Positions 8,532 through 45,086 of a stretch of DNA of 64,000 nt are shown here, one piece after another (position 1 is the first letter of the stretch; the number at the start of each line of letters is the position of its first letter). The stretch is taken from positions 1 through 64,000 of the forward strand of contig NZ_BATQ01000117.1 of the NCBI RefSeq assembly GCF_000739635.1, in the 5' to 3' direction. The translations under genes were made by a program, and so were the position numbers. Below the pieces are notes generated by a model. That model was not told the origin of the DNA, did no database searches, and saw nothing but the letters and a program-made list of their open reading frames with translations. Source of the DNA: Verrucomicrobium sp. BvORR034. Its GTDB lineage: Bacteria > Verrucomicrobiota > Verrucomicrobiia > Verrucomicrobiales > Verrucomicrobiaceae.

Positions 8532-8875
8532 GGGAGCGGCACACTAGCGGGCATGGCGGAAGGGTCAAGGGTTCTTGGTTGCGCGCGGCCACCATTGATT
8601 CTCGAAATTCATCCCTGAGAACTTGTTGGGATGAAAATGCCGGGGGTGTTGCGAGGCATTTTGAGGCTGGACACACCCCGGCGAATCCTCACTTCGCTCA
8701 GTCAGTCCAATCTCACCTGCCACCGCTGGCATTTTCATCCCAACAGGTTCTGAAAGATTTTCCCTAGTGCGAATCCTTGGCGTGATGCCCTTGCAGCCGA
8801 CGCCCCTGCGATCTATCAAACAGCCCACGGCCACATTGGGTTGCACCGTCCCCTTTTTTCATCCCCACCATCATC
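8532..8875. other. Gene-free gap holding a MITE-like element
   Basis: Between the divergent carboxypeptidase-like gene and the NTF2-like gene. It contains the palindromic mobile element at 8619-8750 and otherwise nothing recognisable; the promoters of both flanking genes should lie on either side of that element. Confidence 0.5.
8619..8750. mobile_element. MITE-like element, copy 1 (132 bp)
   Basis: Terminal inverted repeats: left GAACTTGTTGGGATGAAAAT, right end the reverse complement GAACCTGTTGGGATGAAAAT (one mismatch), flanked on both sides by TGA, a plausible 3-bp target duplication. The interior shares GTTGCGAGGCATTTTGAG with copy 2 at 61602-61822. It has no coding capacity, so it must be moved in trans; IS5-like transposases make similar 3-bp TNA duplications, but that parentage is inference. 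Confidence 0.75.
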
Positions 8876-9292
8876 ATGTCCACCGCCCGCGAATCCGCTC
8901 TCGCCCTGGTCACCTCCTACTACGAAACCTTCAACTCCGGCGACCGCGAGGCCTTTTTGGCCCTGCTCACAGACGAAGTGCGGCACGACACCAACCAAGG
9001 TGGCCAGGAAGCAGGCAGGGAAAAATTCCGCACCTTCCTGGCACGGATGGACCGTTGCTACGCAGAGCAGGTCAAAGAACTCCAGGTGTTTGCCAGCGAG
9101 GACGGCACCCGCGCCGCTGCGGAGTTTTTCATTGATGGCACGTACCAGTCCACCGACGCGGGTCTGCCCGAGGCTACCGGACAGAAATACTACCTGCGTG
9201 TGGGCGCCTTCTTCGAGTTGGTGAGCGGCAAGGTCGACCGCATCACCAACTACTACAACCTCCAGGAATGGCTGCGACTCGTCGGAGCCTAG
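8876..9292 (+). CDS. NTF2/SnoaL-like ketosteroid isomerase-related protein
   Basis: A 138-residue single-domain protein with the NTF2-like cone fold pattern: an N-terminal helix ALVTSYYETFNSGDREAF, then LLTDEVRHD and C-terminal strands ending YYNLQEWLRLVG. No signal peptide. Such proteins are often small hydrolases, isomerases or binding proteins; the substrate cannot be told. It converges on the pterin dehydratase gene with only 15 bp between the stops. Confidence 0.8.
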   Translation: MSTARESALALVTSYYETFNSGDREAFLALLTDEVRHDTNQGGQEAGREKFRTFLARMDRCYAEQVKELQVFASEDGTRAAAEFFIDGTYQSTDAGLPEATGQKYYLRVGAFFELVSGKVDRITNYYNLQEWLRLVGA

Positions 9293-9307
9293 CTTCCCCG
9301 GAAGGGA

Positions 9308-9592
9308 TCAACTGGCAATCTGATCCACCTCGCGAGCCAGGGAGAAGTCCAGCTCCGTCAGACCGCTTTTGCTATGGGTGCTGAGACGGAGCGTCACCTT
9401 CCGCCACCCAATCTGAATGTCTGGGTGGTGATTCAGCGCCTCAGCCCGGGTGGCCACCTCGTTCACAAAGCTGATGCCCGCCAGATAGTACGGAAATGAA
9501 AACGTGCGGGTGATTTCGGCCCCCTCTTTCTTCCATTCCGGCACAGTGGCCAGTTCTGACTCCAGCGAGGGTTCATCGAGCAATTCAGGCAT
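9308..9592 (-). CDS. 4a-hydroxytetrahydrobiopterin dehydratase (PCD/DCoH)
   Basis: A 94-residue pterin-4a-carbinolamine dehydratase, which regenerates the pterin cofactor after aromatic hydroxylation. The family core is clear: [19 protein letters not shown], holding the two adjacent His and the HPD motif, followed by [15 protein letters not shown] at 9592 gives the usual family length; an upstream in-frame start would only add eleven non-conserved residues. No phenylalanine hydroxylase is in the window, so its role may be in molybdopterin or other pterin metabolism. Confidence 0.92.
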
Positions 9593-9726
9593 TTTTGACC
9601 ATGGCACGGTTTTCCAGACGTGCATCCTTTTTGCCTTGCAAGGTAGTTCGCCTCACCTATAAACAACCCCTCGCCGTGGTACACACGGCGGGCTTTTCTG
9701 CAACCATCACCTGCCGCCTAAATCCT

Positions 9727-10710
<984 letters not shown>

Positions 10711-39037: not shown

Positions 39038-39076
39038 ACCCTCCTGTCCGCCCGTCGGCAGGAGGGTTTATTTTTT
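39038..39076 (+). terminator. Rho-independent terminator after pyrG
   Basis: Stem ACCCTCCTG / CAGGAGGGT with a 12-base loop, followed by TTTATTTTTT. It insulates the WXG100 locus from pyrG. Confidence 0.93.
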
Positions 39077-39246: not shown

Positions 39247-39519
39247 ATGGCACAGGCAATCATGGATCCAGAGGAGGTGCGGCGCTTCGCCAAGGAGCTG
39301 AAGCGCTTCAACGACGACGTGCAGACCAAGGCCTCGGCTTTGAATGCCCGTTTCACGGCGCTGAGCGGCACCTGGCAGGATCAGGAGCATGAGAAGTTTG
39401 CCGAGGAGTTCATCACCACCATGAAAGCCCTCAGAAAATTCGTGGAGATCTCTGAGAAGCACACCCCATTTCTCCTGCGAAAGGCGCAACGCATCGAACA
39501 ATACCTCGATCAACGTTAA
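39247..39519 (+). CDS. WXG100-type small secreted-protein-like (first copy)
   Basis: A 90-residue, all-helical protein with the hallmarks of the WXG100/ESAT-6 family: two amphipathic helices and a central turn with Trp43 in GTWQDQEHEKF, in place of the classical WxG. Length (about 100) and Trp position fit the family. Such proteins dimerise as helical hairpins and are exported by ESX/type VII systems, driven by an FtsK/SpoIIIE ATPase, like the one encoded 0.8 kb downstream. The Trp-x-Asp variant has been noted in Gram-negative members. No signal peptide is present, as expected. Confidence 0.85.
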   Translation: MAQAIMDPEEVRRFAKELKRFNDDVQTKASALNARFTALSGTWQDQEHEKFAEEFITTMKALRKFVEISEKHTPFLLRKAQRIEQYLDQR

Positions 39520-39537
39520 GCTGCTTTCCGGCATATC

Positions 39538-40074
39538 ATGGCTGATCAGGCAAAAATCACCTCACTCGACGCCCTCCAGAGCTTCCGGGCGCACCTCGTC
39601 ATTTTCATCACGAAGGCCCGGCGCTCACTTGACCAGTCAGGGGACGAAGTCCGCCGTGCCCGCGCCTGGGTGCAAACGGAACAGCGCACTCATTGGGAGG
39701 GGCAGATTCGTCGGCGACGGCGCATGCTGGAGCAGGCGGAGGGAGAACTGATGACCGCCCGGATGTCCGAGTTCGTGGACTCCCCTTCCCAACAACAGGC
39801 CGCTGTGCGGAAGGCCAAGGCAGCCGTCGCCGAGGCGGAGCAGAAACTGGAGCGGGTCAAAGCGTGGAACCGGAACTTCGACAGCACCTTTGATCCCCAT
39901 GTTCGGAAGATGGAAATGCTGCGGGACTATGTAGATCACGACCTGCCCAAAGCCGTCGCCTACTTGGACCAAGTTCAGAAGATTCTGGAGTCCTACCATC
40001 AGATGGGAGGCCCCGCGCCCTCCGGGCCAAGCACCGCCTTGCCGAGTGCGGCGGAATCTGAACAACCTTCCTGA
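39538..40074 (+). CDS. Coiled-coil protein of the WXG100/FtsK locus
   Basis: A 178-residue protein, no family recognised. Residues about 10-155 are almost entirely helical and charged (RRRRRMLEQAEGELM, KAKAAVAEAEQKLERVKAWN), predicted to form a long coiled coil; the C-terminal 25 residues are Pro/Ser-rich and disordered. It lies 18 bp after the first WXG100 gene and 73 bp before the second, same strand. It could be a chaperone, needle-like or structural partner, or itself a substrate; nothing in the sequence decides. Confidence 0.75.
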   Translation: MADQAKITSLDALQSFRAHLVIFITKARRSLDQSGDEVRRARAWVQTEQRTHWEGQIRRRRRMLEQAEGELMTARMSEFVDSPSQQQAAVRKAKAAVAEAEQKLERVKAWNRNFDSTFDPHVRKMEMLRDYVDHDLPKAVAYLDQVQKILESYHQMGGPAPSGPSTALPSAAESEQPS

Positions 40075-40147
40075 GGTTTTGTCCCTTAAGACTCCTCGTT
40101 CGCCACGGCGTTTTCGATTCTTTTCAGCCGCTTCTATTTCCTATCGC

Positions 40148-40360
40148 ATGAGCACTCGCGTCAGCGCCTCCAATCTCGCCCAAGCCCTCCGTGAACTAAC
40201 GGTGGAATGGCAGCAAACGCGGTCCAGTTGGCGGGACCAAAAGGCCCTCGAATTTCAAGAACACTACCTCGAAAAACTTCCGCATTTGGTGACCCATGCG
40301 CGGAACGTCATGGAGGAGATGGACAATTTGCTTAGAAAGGTGAAAAACGACTGTGAGTAA
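40148..40360 (+). CDS. Second, shorter WXG100-like protein
   Basis: A 70-residue helical protein whose turn SSWRDQKALEF repeats the Trp-x-Asp-Gln-x4-Phe pattern of the gene at 39247 (Trp28, Asp30, Phe36; spacing identical). The first helix is about 15 residues shorter than in the classical family. ATG at 40148 is chosen; frames further upstream are Arg-rich and unlike a helix. Its last codons overlap the GTG start of the ATPase gene by 8 bp, arguing for translational coupling. It may form a heterodimer with the first copy. Confidence 0.75.
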   Translation: MSTRVSASNLAQALRELTVEWQQTRSSWRDQKALEFQEHYLEKLPHLVTHARNVMEEMDNLLRKVKNDCE

Positions 40361-43300
40361 CGGGTTGGATCTCAGAGCCAGCCGGAGTGTCGAGTTGCTC
40401 GGCGCACTGGAAAGTAAAGTGGCAGACTTCGCCAAGCGCGAGGATCTGCTGCAAAAGGAACTGCGCACCCAGCGCAATACCGTCACGCAAAAACATCAGG
40501 TCACCATTGATCAGGCCCAGAGCCGGCTCGACCGCGAAGTTTCCGAGGCCCAAGCCCATCTGGAGGCAGAATCAGCGCGGCTCAAACGCGTCTATGAACG
40601 TCGGCGCGCCCGTGTGGAACGTTCCCACCTGGTGCTCACCCGGCATCTGCCTCGCCGCGTGCGTGAAGTGCGGGAGAGCTGGCTGGGCGAACTGCAAATG
40701 CGTCGCTTCCGCCTGGAACGTCAGTTGGAAGCCTCCGGCGTGGTCAATCCGGAGTTCACCCGTCGCCTGGCCACCTATCAGTCCCAGTTCACCGATCTGT
40801 TGCACCGCACGCGGGATGCCTTCGCAGGCTCCAGTTCGTTCATCAGCATGATCCGGGTGCGTCGCAAGGCCCCTCTTCCGGGCCCCGTGCCTGCGGGTGA
40901 GGAGGCAGAATGGCTCAACAACCTGCAGGCCCATCTGGCCGCCGGGGAGAAGCAGCTGGAAGAGTTCAAGCAGTTCCCCCTCCCCCGGCTGTTTGCAAAG
41001 GTCCCGCTCACCTTCTTTGCCCTCGGCATCATTTTGATCGGCCTGGGCGCCTTGTATGGGATGGGGCTCCATCCGAAGGACTACAGCGTCGTCGCCACCG
41101 GATGCGCCGTGGCCTTCGTCTCCGTCTGGATCATTTACCTCATCGGCATGTCCAAGGTGAAACCAGTGGCAAAGGAACTCGCCGCATCCATCAAGGAAGC
41201 CCGCTTCCTCCAGGACAGCTGCCGGGCCACCGTGGACTCTCATACCCAGCAGGGACGCGGAGCCCTGCAAGACGCGTTTGACCGTGAAGTGGCGGCGATC
41301 GAGGAACAGAAGCTCCGCGCCGACGATGTCGCCCAGGAGTTCGAGGAACGCACCAAGGCCAAACTCGCGGCACAATACCCGCGCTTGCTGGCAAAGATTG
41401 ACCACACCCTGGCCAGCCGCCTGGCACGCGTGGAAGCCGACCAATCCCACAGGATCGAATCCGTCACGAATACGGACTCCGCCGCCATCTCCCAGTTGCG
41501 CGCTGCCCAGCAGGCCGATGTTGCCTCGCTGGAGTCCGGCGAGAGCGCACGCTGGCATCAAATCGAGACCGAATGGAAGAGCGAGATCACCCCGATCTAT
41601 GATGCCATCAGCCAGATGAACTCGGCCACCGCCGCGAGGTTCCCCCAATGGCACCCGGGCTATGCAGAGGGCTGGAAGCCCCCGACTGACTTCACCCCCG
41701 CCACACGCTTCGCCCAGCTTGAAGTGGATCTGGCCCGCCCAACCGCCACTCTGCCCAAGGATCCACGATTGGCCCTCCCCGGACCATCGAAGCTCTCCAT
41801 CCCGCTTTCGCTCTCCTTCCCCTATCAGGGCTCTCTGTTGTTCGAGACCAATGAACCCGGTGGCACCACCGCCATTGATGCGCTGAACAACATCATCCTC
41901 CGCCTCCTGGCCACCACCCCTCCCGGCAAGCTCAGCTTCACAATCATTGACCCGGTGGGACTGGGCCAGAGTTTCGCCGGCCTCATGCACCTTTCCGACT
42001 ACGAGGAAACGCTCATCAATCGCCGCATCTGGACGCAACGCGACCAGATCGAGGAGCGTCTCGCTGAGTTGAGCGAGCACATTGAGAAGGTCATCCAGAT
42101 GTACCTTCGGAATGAGTATGCCTCCATCACGGAGTACAATGAGCAAGCGGGAAGCGTGGCGGAGAAGTATCACTTCCTCGTCATCGCCGACTTCCCGGTG
42201 AACTTCAGCGAGACCGCAGCCAAGCGCCTTCAGAGCATCGCCACCAGCGGCCCTCGCTGTGGCATCTACACTCTCATTCATTGGGATCAGCGCCACCCCC
42301 TGCCCGATGGCTTCACGCCAGATGAACTGCGTCAGAACAGCATCTGCATGCGCAAGGAACGGAACGGCTTTGTCCTGGCCAATGATGTGGTGAAGAAGTC
42401 TGGGGCCACTCTGGTCTTCGACGCTCCGCCCAATCCGGACCTCGCCGTGCAACTCGTGCACCGGATCGGGAAAAGCAGCATCGACTCCAACATCGTCCAG
42501 GTGCCCTTTTCCCAGATTGCCCCGCCACCAGGAGACCTCTGGGCGGGCGAAACCACCAACGAACTGCGCATTGCCATCGGTCGCACCGGGGCCACCAAAC
42601 TCCAGTACCTGGCCATCGGCAAAGGCACCCGGCAACACGCCCTCTTCGCCGGCAAGACGGGTTCAGGGAAATCGACGCTCTTCCACGTCATCATCACCAA
42701 CCTCGCGCTCACCTGCAGTCCGGAGGAAGTGGAGTTCTATCTCATCGACTTCAAGAAAGGGGTCGAGTTCAAATGCTATGCCTCGAAAAAACTGCCCCAC
42801 GCGAAGGTGGTCGCCATTGAGAGTGATCGCGACTTCGCTCTAAGCGTGCTTCAGCGCGTGGATGGAGAATTGAAACGTCGTGGAGACATGTTCCGCAAGC
42901 TCGGGGTACAGGACGTCGCCGGCTATAAGCGCGCCGGTGGCACTGAGCCCATGCCGCGATCCCTGCTGCTCATTGACGAGTTCCAAGAGTTCTTCGTGGA
43001 CGATGACACCATCGCCCAGACGGCCTCTCTGCTCTTTGACCGTATCGTCCGCCAAGGCCGAGCCTTTGGCATTCATGTACTGCTGGGTTCACAGACACTG
43101 GGCGGCGCCTACTCGCTGGCTCGCGCCACTCTGGGCCAGATGGTCATTCGTGTGGCCCTCCAGTGCAATGAAGCAGATGCCTATCTCATCATGGATGAGA
43201 ACAACGCCGCACCGCGTCTCCTCACCCGTCCGGGCGAGGGCATCTACAATGATGCCGCTGGCGCGATTGAAGGGAACAGTCCGTTCCAGGTGGTCTGGCT

Positions 43301-44243
43301 GGGAGATGACGAACGCGACGAGTGGCTGGACAAGGTCCACGATCTGGCCGTAGAGCGCGGTCACGAATACACCTCCCCCATTGTCTTCGAAGGCAACGCC
43401 CCCGCCGATCTTCGCGAGAACCAACTGCTCCGCTTTGCCCTCGACACCAAGCCGGCCAATCAGCCCCTGGCTGGCAAAGCCTGGCTGGGAGCGCCGAATT
43501 CCATCAAGGGACCTACGGAAGCCGCCTTCCACCGCCAAAGCGGCAACCACCTGCTCATTGTCGGGCAGAGGGACGAAGCCGCCCTCACCTTGTTGGGCAC
43601 CTCATTGCTTTCCTTGGCCGCCCAGTATCCCGTGGGGGGAGCCAGGTTTGTGGTGCTCCACGGGTGCACCCCAGGCACGACGGATTCAGACTTCATCGAG
43701 CGGGTCATCGCAACGGTGCCCCACGAAATCACTGTCTCACGCGGGCAGGACATCGGCACGATCATGTCGGAACTGTCCACCGAGATGAAGGCTCGCAGCA
43801 GCGGTGAAGTCGAAGCCACCCGTGCCCCTGCGGTCTTTCTGCTCATTCACGGCCTGCACAAGTACAAGAAACTGCGTCAGGAGGATGACTTCAGCTTCTC
43901 CATGAGCAGCGACGACGAGGGCGGAGGCAATCCGGGCAGTCAGTTCGTGGATCTCATCACCGAGGGCAGCTCGCTCGGGATGCACGTCCTCACGACGGTG
44001 GATACATTTAACAACGTCAACCGGTCCCTGAGCCGGAAGGCGCTGAGCGAGTTTGAGATGCGGGTGGTCTTCCAAATGAGCGCCAACGATTCCGCGAGCC
44101 TGATTGACTCGCCCAAGGCCAGCAATCTGGGGCTGCACCGGGCTCTGTTCTACAACGAGCACGAAGGCACCCTGGAAACCTTCCGTCCCTACGCGATGCC
44201 CGATGCGGGTTGGATTGAGGAGGCAGGACAGAAGTTAAGGTGA
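40353..44243 (+). CDS. Membrane FtsK/SpoIIIE-type ATPase (EssC/EccC-like)
   Basis: A 1296-residue protein. Order: coiled coil (about 10-110), two transmembrane helices (about 217-240 and 245-266), a second coiled coil (270-400), then three FtsK-fold domains. The first (about 485-740) is degenerate: ETNEPGG stands where Walker A should be, though the YNEQAGS...HFLVIADFP pattern is clear. The second (about 745-1045) is intact: Walker A GKTGSGKST (Lys773), Walker B LLLIDEF (Asp875, Glu876). The third (about 1060-1290) lacks both (VGQRDEA, LLIHGL). This is the three-ATPase build of type VII motor EssC/EccC but without FHA domains. Start is GTG, overlapping the preceding WXG100-like gene. Confidence 0.88.
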   Translation: MSNGLDLRASRSVELLGALESKVADFAKREDLLQKELRTQRNTVTQKHQVTIDQAQSRLDREVSEAQAHLEAESARLKRVYERRRARVERSHLVLTRHLPRRVREVRESWLGELQMRRFRLERQLEASGVVNPEFTRRLATYQSQFTDLLHRTRDAFAGSSSFISMIRVRRKAPLPGPVPAGEEAEWLNNLQAHLAAGEKQLEEFKQFPLPRLFAKVPLTFFALGIILIGLGALYGMGLHPKDYSVVATGCAVAFVSVWIIYLIGMSKVKPVAKELAASIKEARFLQDSCRATVDSHTQQGRGALQDAFDREVAAIEEQKLRADDVAQEFEERTKAKLAAQYPRLLAKIDHTLASRLARVEADQSHRIESVTNTDSAAISQLRAAQQADVASLESGESARWHQIETEWKSEITPIYDAISQMNSATAARFPQWHPGYAEGWKPPTDFTPATRFAQLEVDLARPTATLPKDPRLALPGPSKLSIPLSLSFPYQGSLLFETNEPGGTTAIDALNNIILRLLATTPPGKLSFTIIDPVGLGQSFAGLMHLSDYEETLINRRIWTQRDQIEERLAELSEHIEKVIQMYLRNEYASITEYNEQAGSVAEKYHFLVIADFPVNFSETAAKRLQSIATSGPRCGIYTLIHWDQRHPLPDGFTPDELRQNSICMRKERNGFVLANDVVKKSGATLVFDAPPNPDLAVQLVHRIGKSSIDSNIVQVPFSQIAPPPGDLWAGETTNELRIAIGRTGATKLQYLAIGKGTRQHALFAGKTGSGKSTLFHVIITNLALTCSPEEVEFYLIDFKKGVEFKCYASKKLPHAKVVAIESDRDFALSVLQRVDGELKRRGDMFRKLGVQDVAGYKRAGGTEPMPRSLLLIDEFQEFFVDDDTIAQTASLLFDRIVRQGRAFGIHVLLGSQTLGGAYSLARATLGQMVIRVALQCNEADAYLIMDENNAAPRLLTRPGEGIYNDAAGAIEGNSPFQVVWLGDDERDEWLDKVHDLAVERGHEYTSPIVFEGNAPADLRENQLLRFALDTKPANQPLAGKAWLGAPNSIKGPTEAAFHRQSGNHLLIVGQRDEAALTLLGTSLLSLAAQYPVGGARFVVLHGCTPGTTDSDFIERVIATVPHEITVSRGQDIGTIMSELSTEMKARSSGEVEATRAPAVFLLIHGLHKYKKLRQEDDFSFSMSSDDEGGGNPGSQFVDLITEGSSLGMHVLTTVDTFNNVNRSLSRKALSEFEMRVVFQMSANDSASLIDSPKASNLGLHRALFYNEHEGTLETFRPYAMPDAGWIEEAGQKLR

Positions 44244-44271
44244 CCCTTCCCAAAGCCTGACGGCGCATTAG

Positions 44272-44307
44272 ACCCGTTTCCGGACCCCTTCTGGAGACGG
44301 GTTTTTC
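44272..44307 (+). terminator. Rho-independent terminator after the ATPase gene
   Basis: Stem ACCCGTTTCC / GGAGACGGGT (one G-T pair) followed by five T residues, closing the WXG100/FtsK operon. Confidence 0.88.
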
Positions 44308-44378: not shown

Positions 44379-45086
44379 ATGAAAACCCTGCTAATCATCC
44401 TGGCGGCAGGGCTCTGGATCGGTGCTTCCACAGCATCGGCTCAGGTGCTCATTGCGAACGCGTTGGACCGGACTCCTGCGGAGACGGTCACGCAAACAGC
44501 CCTTGTCGCCACGGTGGGCACCACCAACAGTGCCAATCTTGGCGCTGGATGGACTGCCTCCAACACCTTCGTCGGAGTCGCGTCCAGCCAGACGCTGACG
44601 CTGAACCCGGGGATTGCAAATGACTCCGGAGGACTGTTCCAGATTGCCCAGAGCGGGTTGGCGGGGGTCGCAGGAAGCTTCTCAGCCACCAAGGCCTTTA
44701 CGGGAATCACCCTGCTGGATAACACCACCTATAATCTCACCATCAGCGGCAACTCATCGTCTACGGTCGCCATCCTCAGCGCACTGAACGTCAATATTCT
44801 GGTGAATGGAGGTGTCGTCTACCAGACGCCGACCAGCACCCTGCTTGGACTCTTGGACCAAACTGCCACGGAGTCCTTTGTCTTCAGTTTTACAACGGGT
44901 GACGTGGACAATGTCCAACCCGTCAACGTCCAGATCGCAGGCGGCACCCTGGTCGGAGCTCTCGGCCAAAGCGCCTCTCTCACCAAAATCAACCTGGCCG
45001 TCGCCCCTGTTCCAGAACCCGGCAGCCTCCTGCTGTTCCTCACGGGCATTGCAGCGATCATGCGGCGTCAGCGTCCGCGGCGGTAG
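44379..45086 (+). CDS. PEP-CTERM sorting-domain protein
   Basis: A 235-residue exported protein: signal peptide ending near STASAQ, a Thr/Asn/Ser-rich beta-type mature part, and a classic C-terminal PEP-CTERM tail, VPEPGSLLLFLTGIAAIM followed by RRQRPRR. Such tails are recognised and cut by an exosortase, and the protein is usually sent to the surface or an exopolysaccharide matrix. No exosortase is in this window. The mature part is not similar to anything I recognise. Confidence 0.9.
   Translation: MKTLLIILAAGLWIGASTASAQVLIANALDRTPAETVTQTALVATVGTTNSANLGAGWTASNTFVGVASSQTLTLNPGIANDSGGLFQIAQSGLAGVAGSFSATKAFTGITLLDNTTYNLTISGNSSSTVAILSALNVNILVNGGVVYQTPTSTLLGLLDQTATESFVFSFTTGDVDNVQPVNVQIAGGTLVGALGQSASLTKINLAVAPVPEPGSLLLFLTGIAAIMRRQRPRR

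Follow-up and report, generated by a model that had tools for sequence, protein, structure and literature searches.

A conserved four-gene operon for WXG100-type proteins, a hairpin protein and an EccC/EssC-like ATPase in Verrucomicrobium sp. BvORR034

We analysed computationally a stretch of 64,000 nucleotides from Verrucomicrobium sp. BvORR034 (contig NZ_BATQ01000117.1, positions 1 to 64,000 of the forward strand), which is called the window here. A preliminary description of this sequence had placed at 39247-44243 a single operon of four genes, read as a compact type VII (ESX)-like export or surface system, with a terminator before and after it. All four co-directional genes were found at this place, and they form a genuine operon. 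Its genes and flanking hairpins are as follows (lengths in amino acids, aa).

39247..39519, + strand: wxg1 (gene 1), a WXG100 protein of 90 aa with W43-x-D45, from Pfam and homologue alignment
39538..40074, + strand: cc (gene 2), a protein of 178 aa with a two-helix hairpin (2-76 and 84-156) and a variable low-complexity tail, from an AlphaFold model and family alignment
40148..40360, + strand: wxg2 (gene 3), a short WXG-like hairpin protein of 70 aa from the ATG, with W28-x-D30, from alignment and profile overlap
40353..44243, + strand: EccC/EssC-like ATPase (gene 4), 1296 aa, with a coiled coil, a helix pair and three ATPase folds, from Pfam, model and tree
39038..39067, + strand: terminator-like hairpin of 11 pairs followed by a T-rich run, after the stop codon of the CTP synthase gene pyrG, which it closes
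44270..44304, + strand: terminator-like hairpin of 15 pairs closing the operon

The start of the ATPase gene overlaps wxg2 by 8 bases, and the wxg2 frame has an additional in-frame GTG upstream of the ATG start. The operon is flanked by the window's two longest terminator-like hairpins. Their assignment as terminators rests on position and stem length, because the terminator scan overall was barely above chance (8 found, 5.5 expected).

Homologues were gathered from related genomes and GTDB contigs, and the protein-based genome scan covers the best 80 loci. A full-scoring ATPase is present in 36 of the 57 related genomes. All 92 loci that hold the four genes keep one gene order, and thus the arrangement is far beyond chance; a few odd orders arose from stop-to-stop frames and disappeared once starts were trimmed. 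The comparison of synteny across Verrucomicrobia that had been proposed therefore reveals a conserved locus, in which WXG100 proteins are accompanied by an EccC/EssC-type ATPase. In genomes drawn evenly from the phylum, wxg1 was found in 26/384 and cc in 25/384, so the operon is patchy but deep, and in the most distant clade all four genes are likewise present and ordered alike. Averaged over alignment columns, identity reaches 80% in wxg1, 47% in wxg2, 37% in cc and 54% in the ATPase. No conserved neighbours beyond the four genes were found around the operon homologues. Directly downstream of the operon in the window (44379-45086) lies a gene whose product is putatively secreted and has a PEP-CTERM-like C-terminus, a pairing that is not conserved elsewhere. 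The presence of WXG100 proteins in Verrucomicrobia alone is not new, as they have been reported in Verrucomicrobiae and Lentisphaerae (Sutcliffe 2011, as cited in PMC6471051). What is new here is the invariant operon, the link of its hairpin protein to payload proteins, and the loss of the membrane anchor.

Wxg1 matches the Pfam WXG100 family (PF06013) with 40.4 bits (cut-off 27.3) and is the sole such match in the entire 8.6-Mb assembly. It is exactly 90 residues long in 90 of 90 full homologues, all of which carry the W-x-D turn. Its closest match in the PDB is HP0062 of Helicobacter pylori (3fx7, E 9e-11; 2gts, E 3e-10), and the matches to EsxB (7e-8) and EsxA (0.004) rank behind these entries. 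The solved structure of HP0062 is a helical hairpin whose turn reads WRD, and the HP0062 gene clusters with one for an FtsK/SpoIIIE-domain protein (PMC3397514). Wxg2 alone stays below the cut-off (TIGR03930, E 0.004), its family profile recovers wxg1 homologues (E 0.001-0.009), and its W-x-D turn is invariant in a 42-row alignment. Profile comparison by hhalign was not significant for wxg1 with wxg2, nor for wxg1 with cc. The relationship between wxg1 and wxg2 is thus drawn from the cross-hits of their profile hidden Markov models and from the W-x-D turn. The two small helical proteins with this turn, as first described, are borne out, and the contrary case, in which they would not be helical hairpins, did not occur, since gene 1 matches the solved hairpin HP0062. 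In two other loci (L209, 2834-4102; L208, 8554-9936) a WXG100 domain (33.7 bits in L209) is C-terminal in a longer frame whose first part is DNA-glycosylase-like; these may be true fusions or two genes sharing one frame.

The coiled-coil protein of the operon, cc, is predicted as a long two-helix hairpin, each helix having about 75 residues (AlphaFold; predicted local distance difference test, pLDDT, 90.6). It has no Pfam domain, and its C-terminal tail is of low complexity throughout the family. A fold search with cc was uninformative; it returned only generic coiled coils (YscO, HlyD, SMC arms), with Z scores within chance for helical models.

The ATPase matches Pfam FtsK_SpoIIIE with 111 bits. 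In its model (residues 205-1296, mean pLDDT 79) a coiled coil is followed by three ATPase folds, and two hydrophobic helices lie within the coiled coil (213-231 and 246-264). The P-loop (GKTGSGKS at residue 767) and Walker B motif (LLLIDE) are confined to the middle fold. The earlier picture of an ATPase with two transmembrane helices and three FtsK domains therefore stands as to helices and folds, and is amended in that only the middle fold is active. The model aligns with EccC (4nh0) over 717 residues at a root-mean-square deviation of 15, so the match runs domain by domain and not as one rigid body. Further matches of the model are to FtsK motors and to the DUF region of EccC from ESX-3 and ESX-5.

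Within Verrucomicrobia, the membrane tether formed by the helix pair disappeared on at least two occasions, and the small genes mostly remained. The helix pair is missing in 16 of 103 full ATPases, and these are nested inside helix-bearing clades. About 67 residues are missing at this place in a Prosthecobacter-like clade, and shorter stretches in two other clades; three changes are needed on the tree, two of them forced by well-supported branches. All three small genes are seen at 10 of the 16 helix-less loci, most of the others being cut by the end of the fetched stretch, and at one (L081) only wxg2 is present. Another of the 16 (L024, G045:C5) is an orphan ATPase with no wxg1, cc or wxg2 upstream.

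A tree of motor domains splits FtsK, SspH and TcpA (100/98) from the rest, within which EccC/EssC (88/78) stand apart from a clade of cassette ATPases (25 rows, 99/97), which comprises those of Helicobacter, TerY-P, TerD-fused and window type. The window clade is sister to a TerD-fused ATPase of Rhodococcus (96/80), in a tree that is sparsely sampled and unrooted within the cassette clade. With the family motor profile, the operon's own family scores 481-539 bits, the distant clade about 400, cassette relatives 147-248, EccC/EssC 67-81, and the genome's own FtsK 45. The operon very probably belongs to this family of WXG100/EssC-like cassettes, which is known but little studied. The claim that the ATPase is of EccC/EssC kind and not a division FtsK also holds, as it groups with EccC/EssC against FtsK, SspH and TcpA, in a clade of its own. 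FtsK/SpoIIIE DNA translocases share the RecA-like motor fold and differ in lying in a clade apart, where the genome's own FtsK (G000:C56) is found. Likeness to SspH was considered as a link to defence and rejected, because the motor domain alone matches and SspH is in a separate clade. In related genomes, SspH-type ATPases (L130, L131, L132) have a cysteine desulfurase-like gene next to them, an arrangement known from defence islands for DNA phosphorothioation.

In cassette relatives, the slot of cc holds a payload, either a nuclease or a ParB-like protein. Cassettes outside Verrucomicrobia were drawn from plasmid collections, and a single-sequence query with wxg1 over all of PLSDB matched only the Caballeronia and Helicobacter cassettes. 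A plasmid of Helicobacter sp. NHP19-012 (pNHP190012_1) has the order wxg1, a 340-aa coiled-coil protein, an SMI1/KNR4 gene, a 77-aa protein in the place of wxg2, and an FtsK-like ATPase. Its coiled-coil protein, unlike cc, ends in a WHH/colicin-type DNase, and it further differs from the window in the SMI1/KNR4 neighbour and in its 823-aa ATPase without a helix pair. The Caballeronia locus reads VWA, wxg1, a 436-aa coiled-coil protein with an ExK-type C-terminal part (judged by eye), a 113-aa gene, a 76-aa protein, ATPase, CARF, VWA, PP2C and kinase. In Rhodococcus, the TerD-fused ATPase (TerD 69 bits) sits among ter genes, followed by a 314-aa protein with a ParB-like end and then by two small proteins, the second of which matches wxg1; the ParB-like assignment is a weak one (PF02195, E 0.03 in one homologue). 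The ATPases of the plasmid cassette relatives have no membrane helix pair. Payload-bearing second modules also occur beside the plain operon in the same Verrucomicrobiota genomes (G223, G292 with TerY-P genes, and G289, ParB-like). In viral collections, only distant FtsK-type motors were found, plus one unannotated faecal contig whose match is longer. This unverified 'phage' contig (L199, MT836827.1, 2709-5339) matches the ATPase in two pieces, covering 71% of the query at about 29% identity. A third arrangement of related genes was seen in a related genome (L129, G014:C4, 5367-11505) and on a Deinococcus plasmid (L195, 8701-13503), where the ATPase comes first and is followed by two small proteins of WXG-like type, then by a coiled-coil protein as long as 560 or 326 aa and by another WXG-like protein; in the tree, these two ATPases form a fully supported sister pair.

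The cc profile matches the N-terminal part of two ParB-like payload proteins (hhalign probability 84%, E 7e-6, 135 columns; the control values were 0.2% with the sequences reversed and 1.4% with a coiled coil that is unrelated). Cc is thus the counterpart of the carrier domain for at least one type of cargo, and the cargo itself is absent. In the CoCoNuT/TerY-P cassettes, two proteins of WXG type and one coiled-coil protein accompany an EssC-like ATPase, whose N-terminal coiled coil is long and whose central fold is the only active one of three; all of these features recur in the operon. The cassettes differ from it in the nuclease on the coiled coil, in a DNA-mimic gene and in flanking VWA, phosphatase and kinase genes. 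No nuclease is fused to cc across the family alignment, and no such flanking gene is a conserved neighbour. The window operon differs in turn in the two membrane helices of its ATPase and in its stand-alone inheritance, whereas the cassette ATPase is described as active in a single, central domain and as having no membrane helices (PMC11090510).

The payload-free state would be derived rather than ancestral. The opposite history, in which an operon without payload was the starting point and mobile cassettes acquired their payloads afterwards, concerns the same machine, and we think it improbable. Such a history would suit the deep spread in Verrucomicrobiota, the distant clade included, and the coexistence of payload-bearing second modules in the same genomes. 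It sits poorly with the adjacency of the window clade to the payload-bearing Rhodococcus cassette and with the match of cc to the Rhodococcus-type carrier domain, the first of these points being limited by the sampling and rooting of the tree noted above.

Partners of known type VII secretion systems (T7SS) were searched for in the genomes. EssB and EsaA were found in 0 of 29 genomes, the own genome included, and LXG toxins in 0 of 57. YukD/EccD was not found in the own genome and was found in 1 of 29 elsewhere; the controls for EssB, EsaA, YukD and LXG were positive in Bacillus subtilis. EccB gave 0 of 29, and no control genome gave a match either. The genome search for EsaA, EssB, EccD and LXG that had been suggested at the outset thus found none of them in the own genome. 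The one YukD was rejected as a hidden ESX partner, as it sits beside an E1-like gene. At this locus (L128, G004:C1:3615500-3633500, 8865-10341) a YukD-like ubiquitin-fold protein is followed by an E1/ThiF-like protein (judged by eye), and the cluster resembles a bacterial ubiquitin-like conjugation cluster and not an ESX locus.

By the working definition of type VII (ESX) systems, a WXG100 protein together with an ATPase of the EccC/EssC branch, both genomic marks are present here. The operon shares with T7SSa and T7SSb (EccC and EssC with EsxA/EsxB) the WXG100 protein, the side of the FtsK superfamily, the DUF and ATPase folds and the membrane helices. It differs in its separate ATPase clade, in a single active site and in a coiled coil that replaces FHA, and its genome differs in that EssB, EsaA, YukD and LXG toxins were not found. 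In minimal export, the ATPase would drive WXG1 and WXG2 as a pair through the inner membrane, alone or together with cc, and proteins encoded elsewhere would supply the channel and outer-membrane passage. The WXG100 match above cut-off, the position of the ATPase in the tree, the helices in most members and the likeness of the model to EccC, DUF domain included, all agree with this idea. WXG and FtsK proteins in Helicobacter, a system that according to the papers also includes HP0066 of H. pylori, have been termed a minimal T7SS (PMC4978471), and secretion is expected for the cassettes (PMC11090510). We nevertheless regard minimal export as unlikely. The helix pair was lost at least twice while the small genes were mostly kept, the cassette relatives are without it, EssB, EsaA, YukD and LXG were not found in this genome, and wxg1 (80%) is more conserved than the ATPase (54%), unlike exposed substrates. 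For these reasons, and given the separate ATPase clade, a minimal export or surface system as originally proposed is not upheld, and the reading as a compact ESX export system has only partial support. The puzzle of outer-membrane passage raised with that proposal may not exist, since export itself is only a possibility.

We also considered a defence or stress module, in which the complex would help the cell to respond to phages or chemical stress, in the manner of Ter/TerY-P islands, and act on nucleic acid via other partners. Outside Verrucomicrobia, the closest ATPase is fused to TerD and surrounded by ter genes; TerY-P and CARF islands harbour related cassettes, and the motor fold resembles FtsK DNA translocases. 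Against this, the operon has no payload and no linked defence genes in Verrucomicrobia, and its high conservation and constant length are not what is seen in defence genes, which change fast. TerD occurs in 7 of 57 related genomes and the operon in 36, so co-occurrence with TerD was rejected as a functional link. This role seems quite unlikely. The own genome has six TerD-domain genes (G000:C152 and G000:C128), none near the operon, and most related genomes are without TerD.

We infer, on good grounds, that the four products form one ATP-driven machine. In the mechanism that we propose, wxg1 and wxg2 would pair, the long hairpin of cc would dock on the WXG pair, and a presumably hexameric ATPase would engage this complex. 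Its single active ring would then move or remodel the complex using ATP. The hairpin slot that carries a nuclease or ParB-like payload in relatives would here hold only the carrier hairpin. Most Verrucomicrobial ATPases would be tethered to the inner membrane by the helix pair inside the coiled coil. As this tether is dispensable, work in the cytoplasm at or near the membrane is likelier than classical type VII export, and the tether losses and missing partners are why export is not our first choice. The chances that the operon is not a classical exporter are about even, and we lean slightly towards that view. The full statement, that it is a payload-free, largely vertical member of the cassette family whose motor remodels a complex at or near the inner membrane, is likewise put forward as an evenly balanced judgement.

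Several points weigh against this explanation. WXG100 proteins are established as substrates of export, and toxins that are delivered typically have an SMI1/KNR4 gene next to them, as is seen in Helicobacter. The ATPase falls on the T7SS side of a tree whose long branches leave exact placements uncertain, and most Verrucomicrobial ATPases retain their membrane helices. By hhalign, cc is not significantly related to the payload carriers of TerY-P (7.9%) and Helicobacter (1.5%), with which it agrees only in position and coiled-coil make-up. Moreover, the authors who described the TerY-P/CoCoNuT cassette expect secretion, via a different mechanism since the helices are absent (PMC11090510).

We tentatively suggest that Verrucomicrobia may have domesticated a conflict cassette by shedding its nuclease payload, that the WXG100 pair and the EssC-like ATPase became a housekeeping machine that never secretes, and that some lineages then shed the tether; this is a possible history and not the favoured expectation. 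If it is true, WXG100 proteins in this branch would be adaptors for a cytoplasmic motor and not secreted proteins. A WXG100 protein with an EccC/EssC ATPase is usually read as proof of type VII secretion, and a family in which the tether was lost at least two times and channel partners were not found tests how safe that reading is outside Gram-positives. As a natural payload-free version of the cassette known from Helicobacter and defence islands, carried by environmental bacteria that are harmless, the operon could allow the core machine to be studied without the nuclease.

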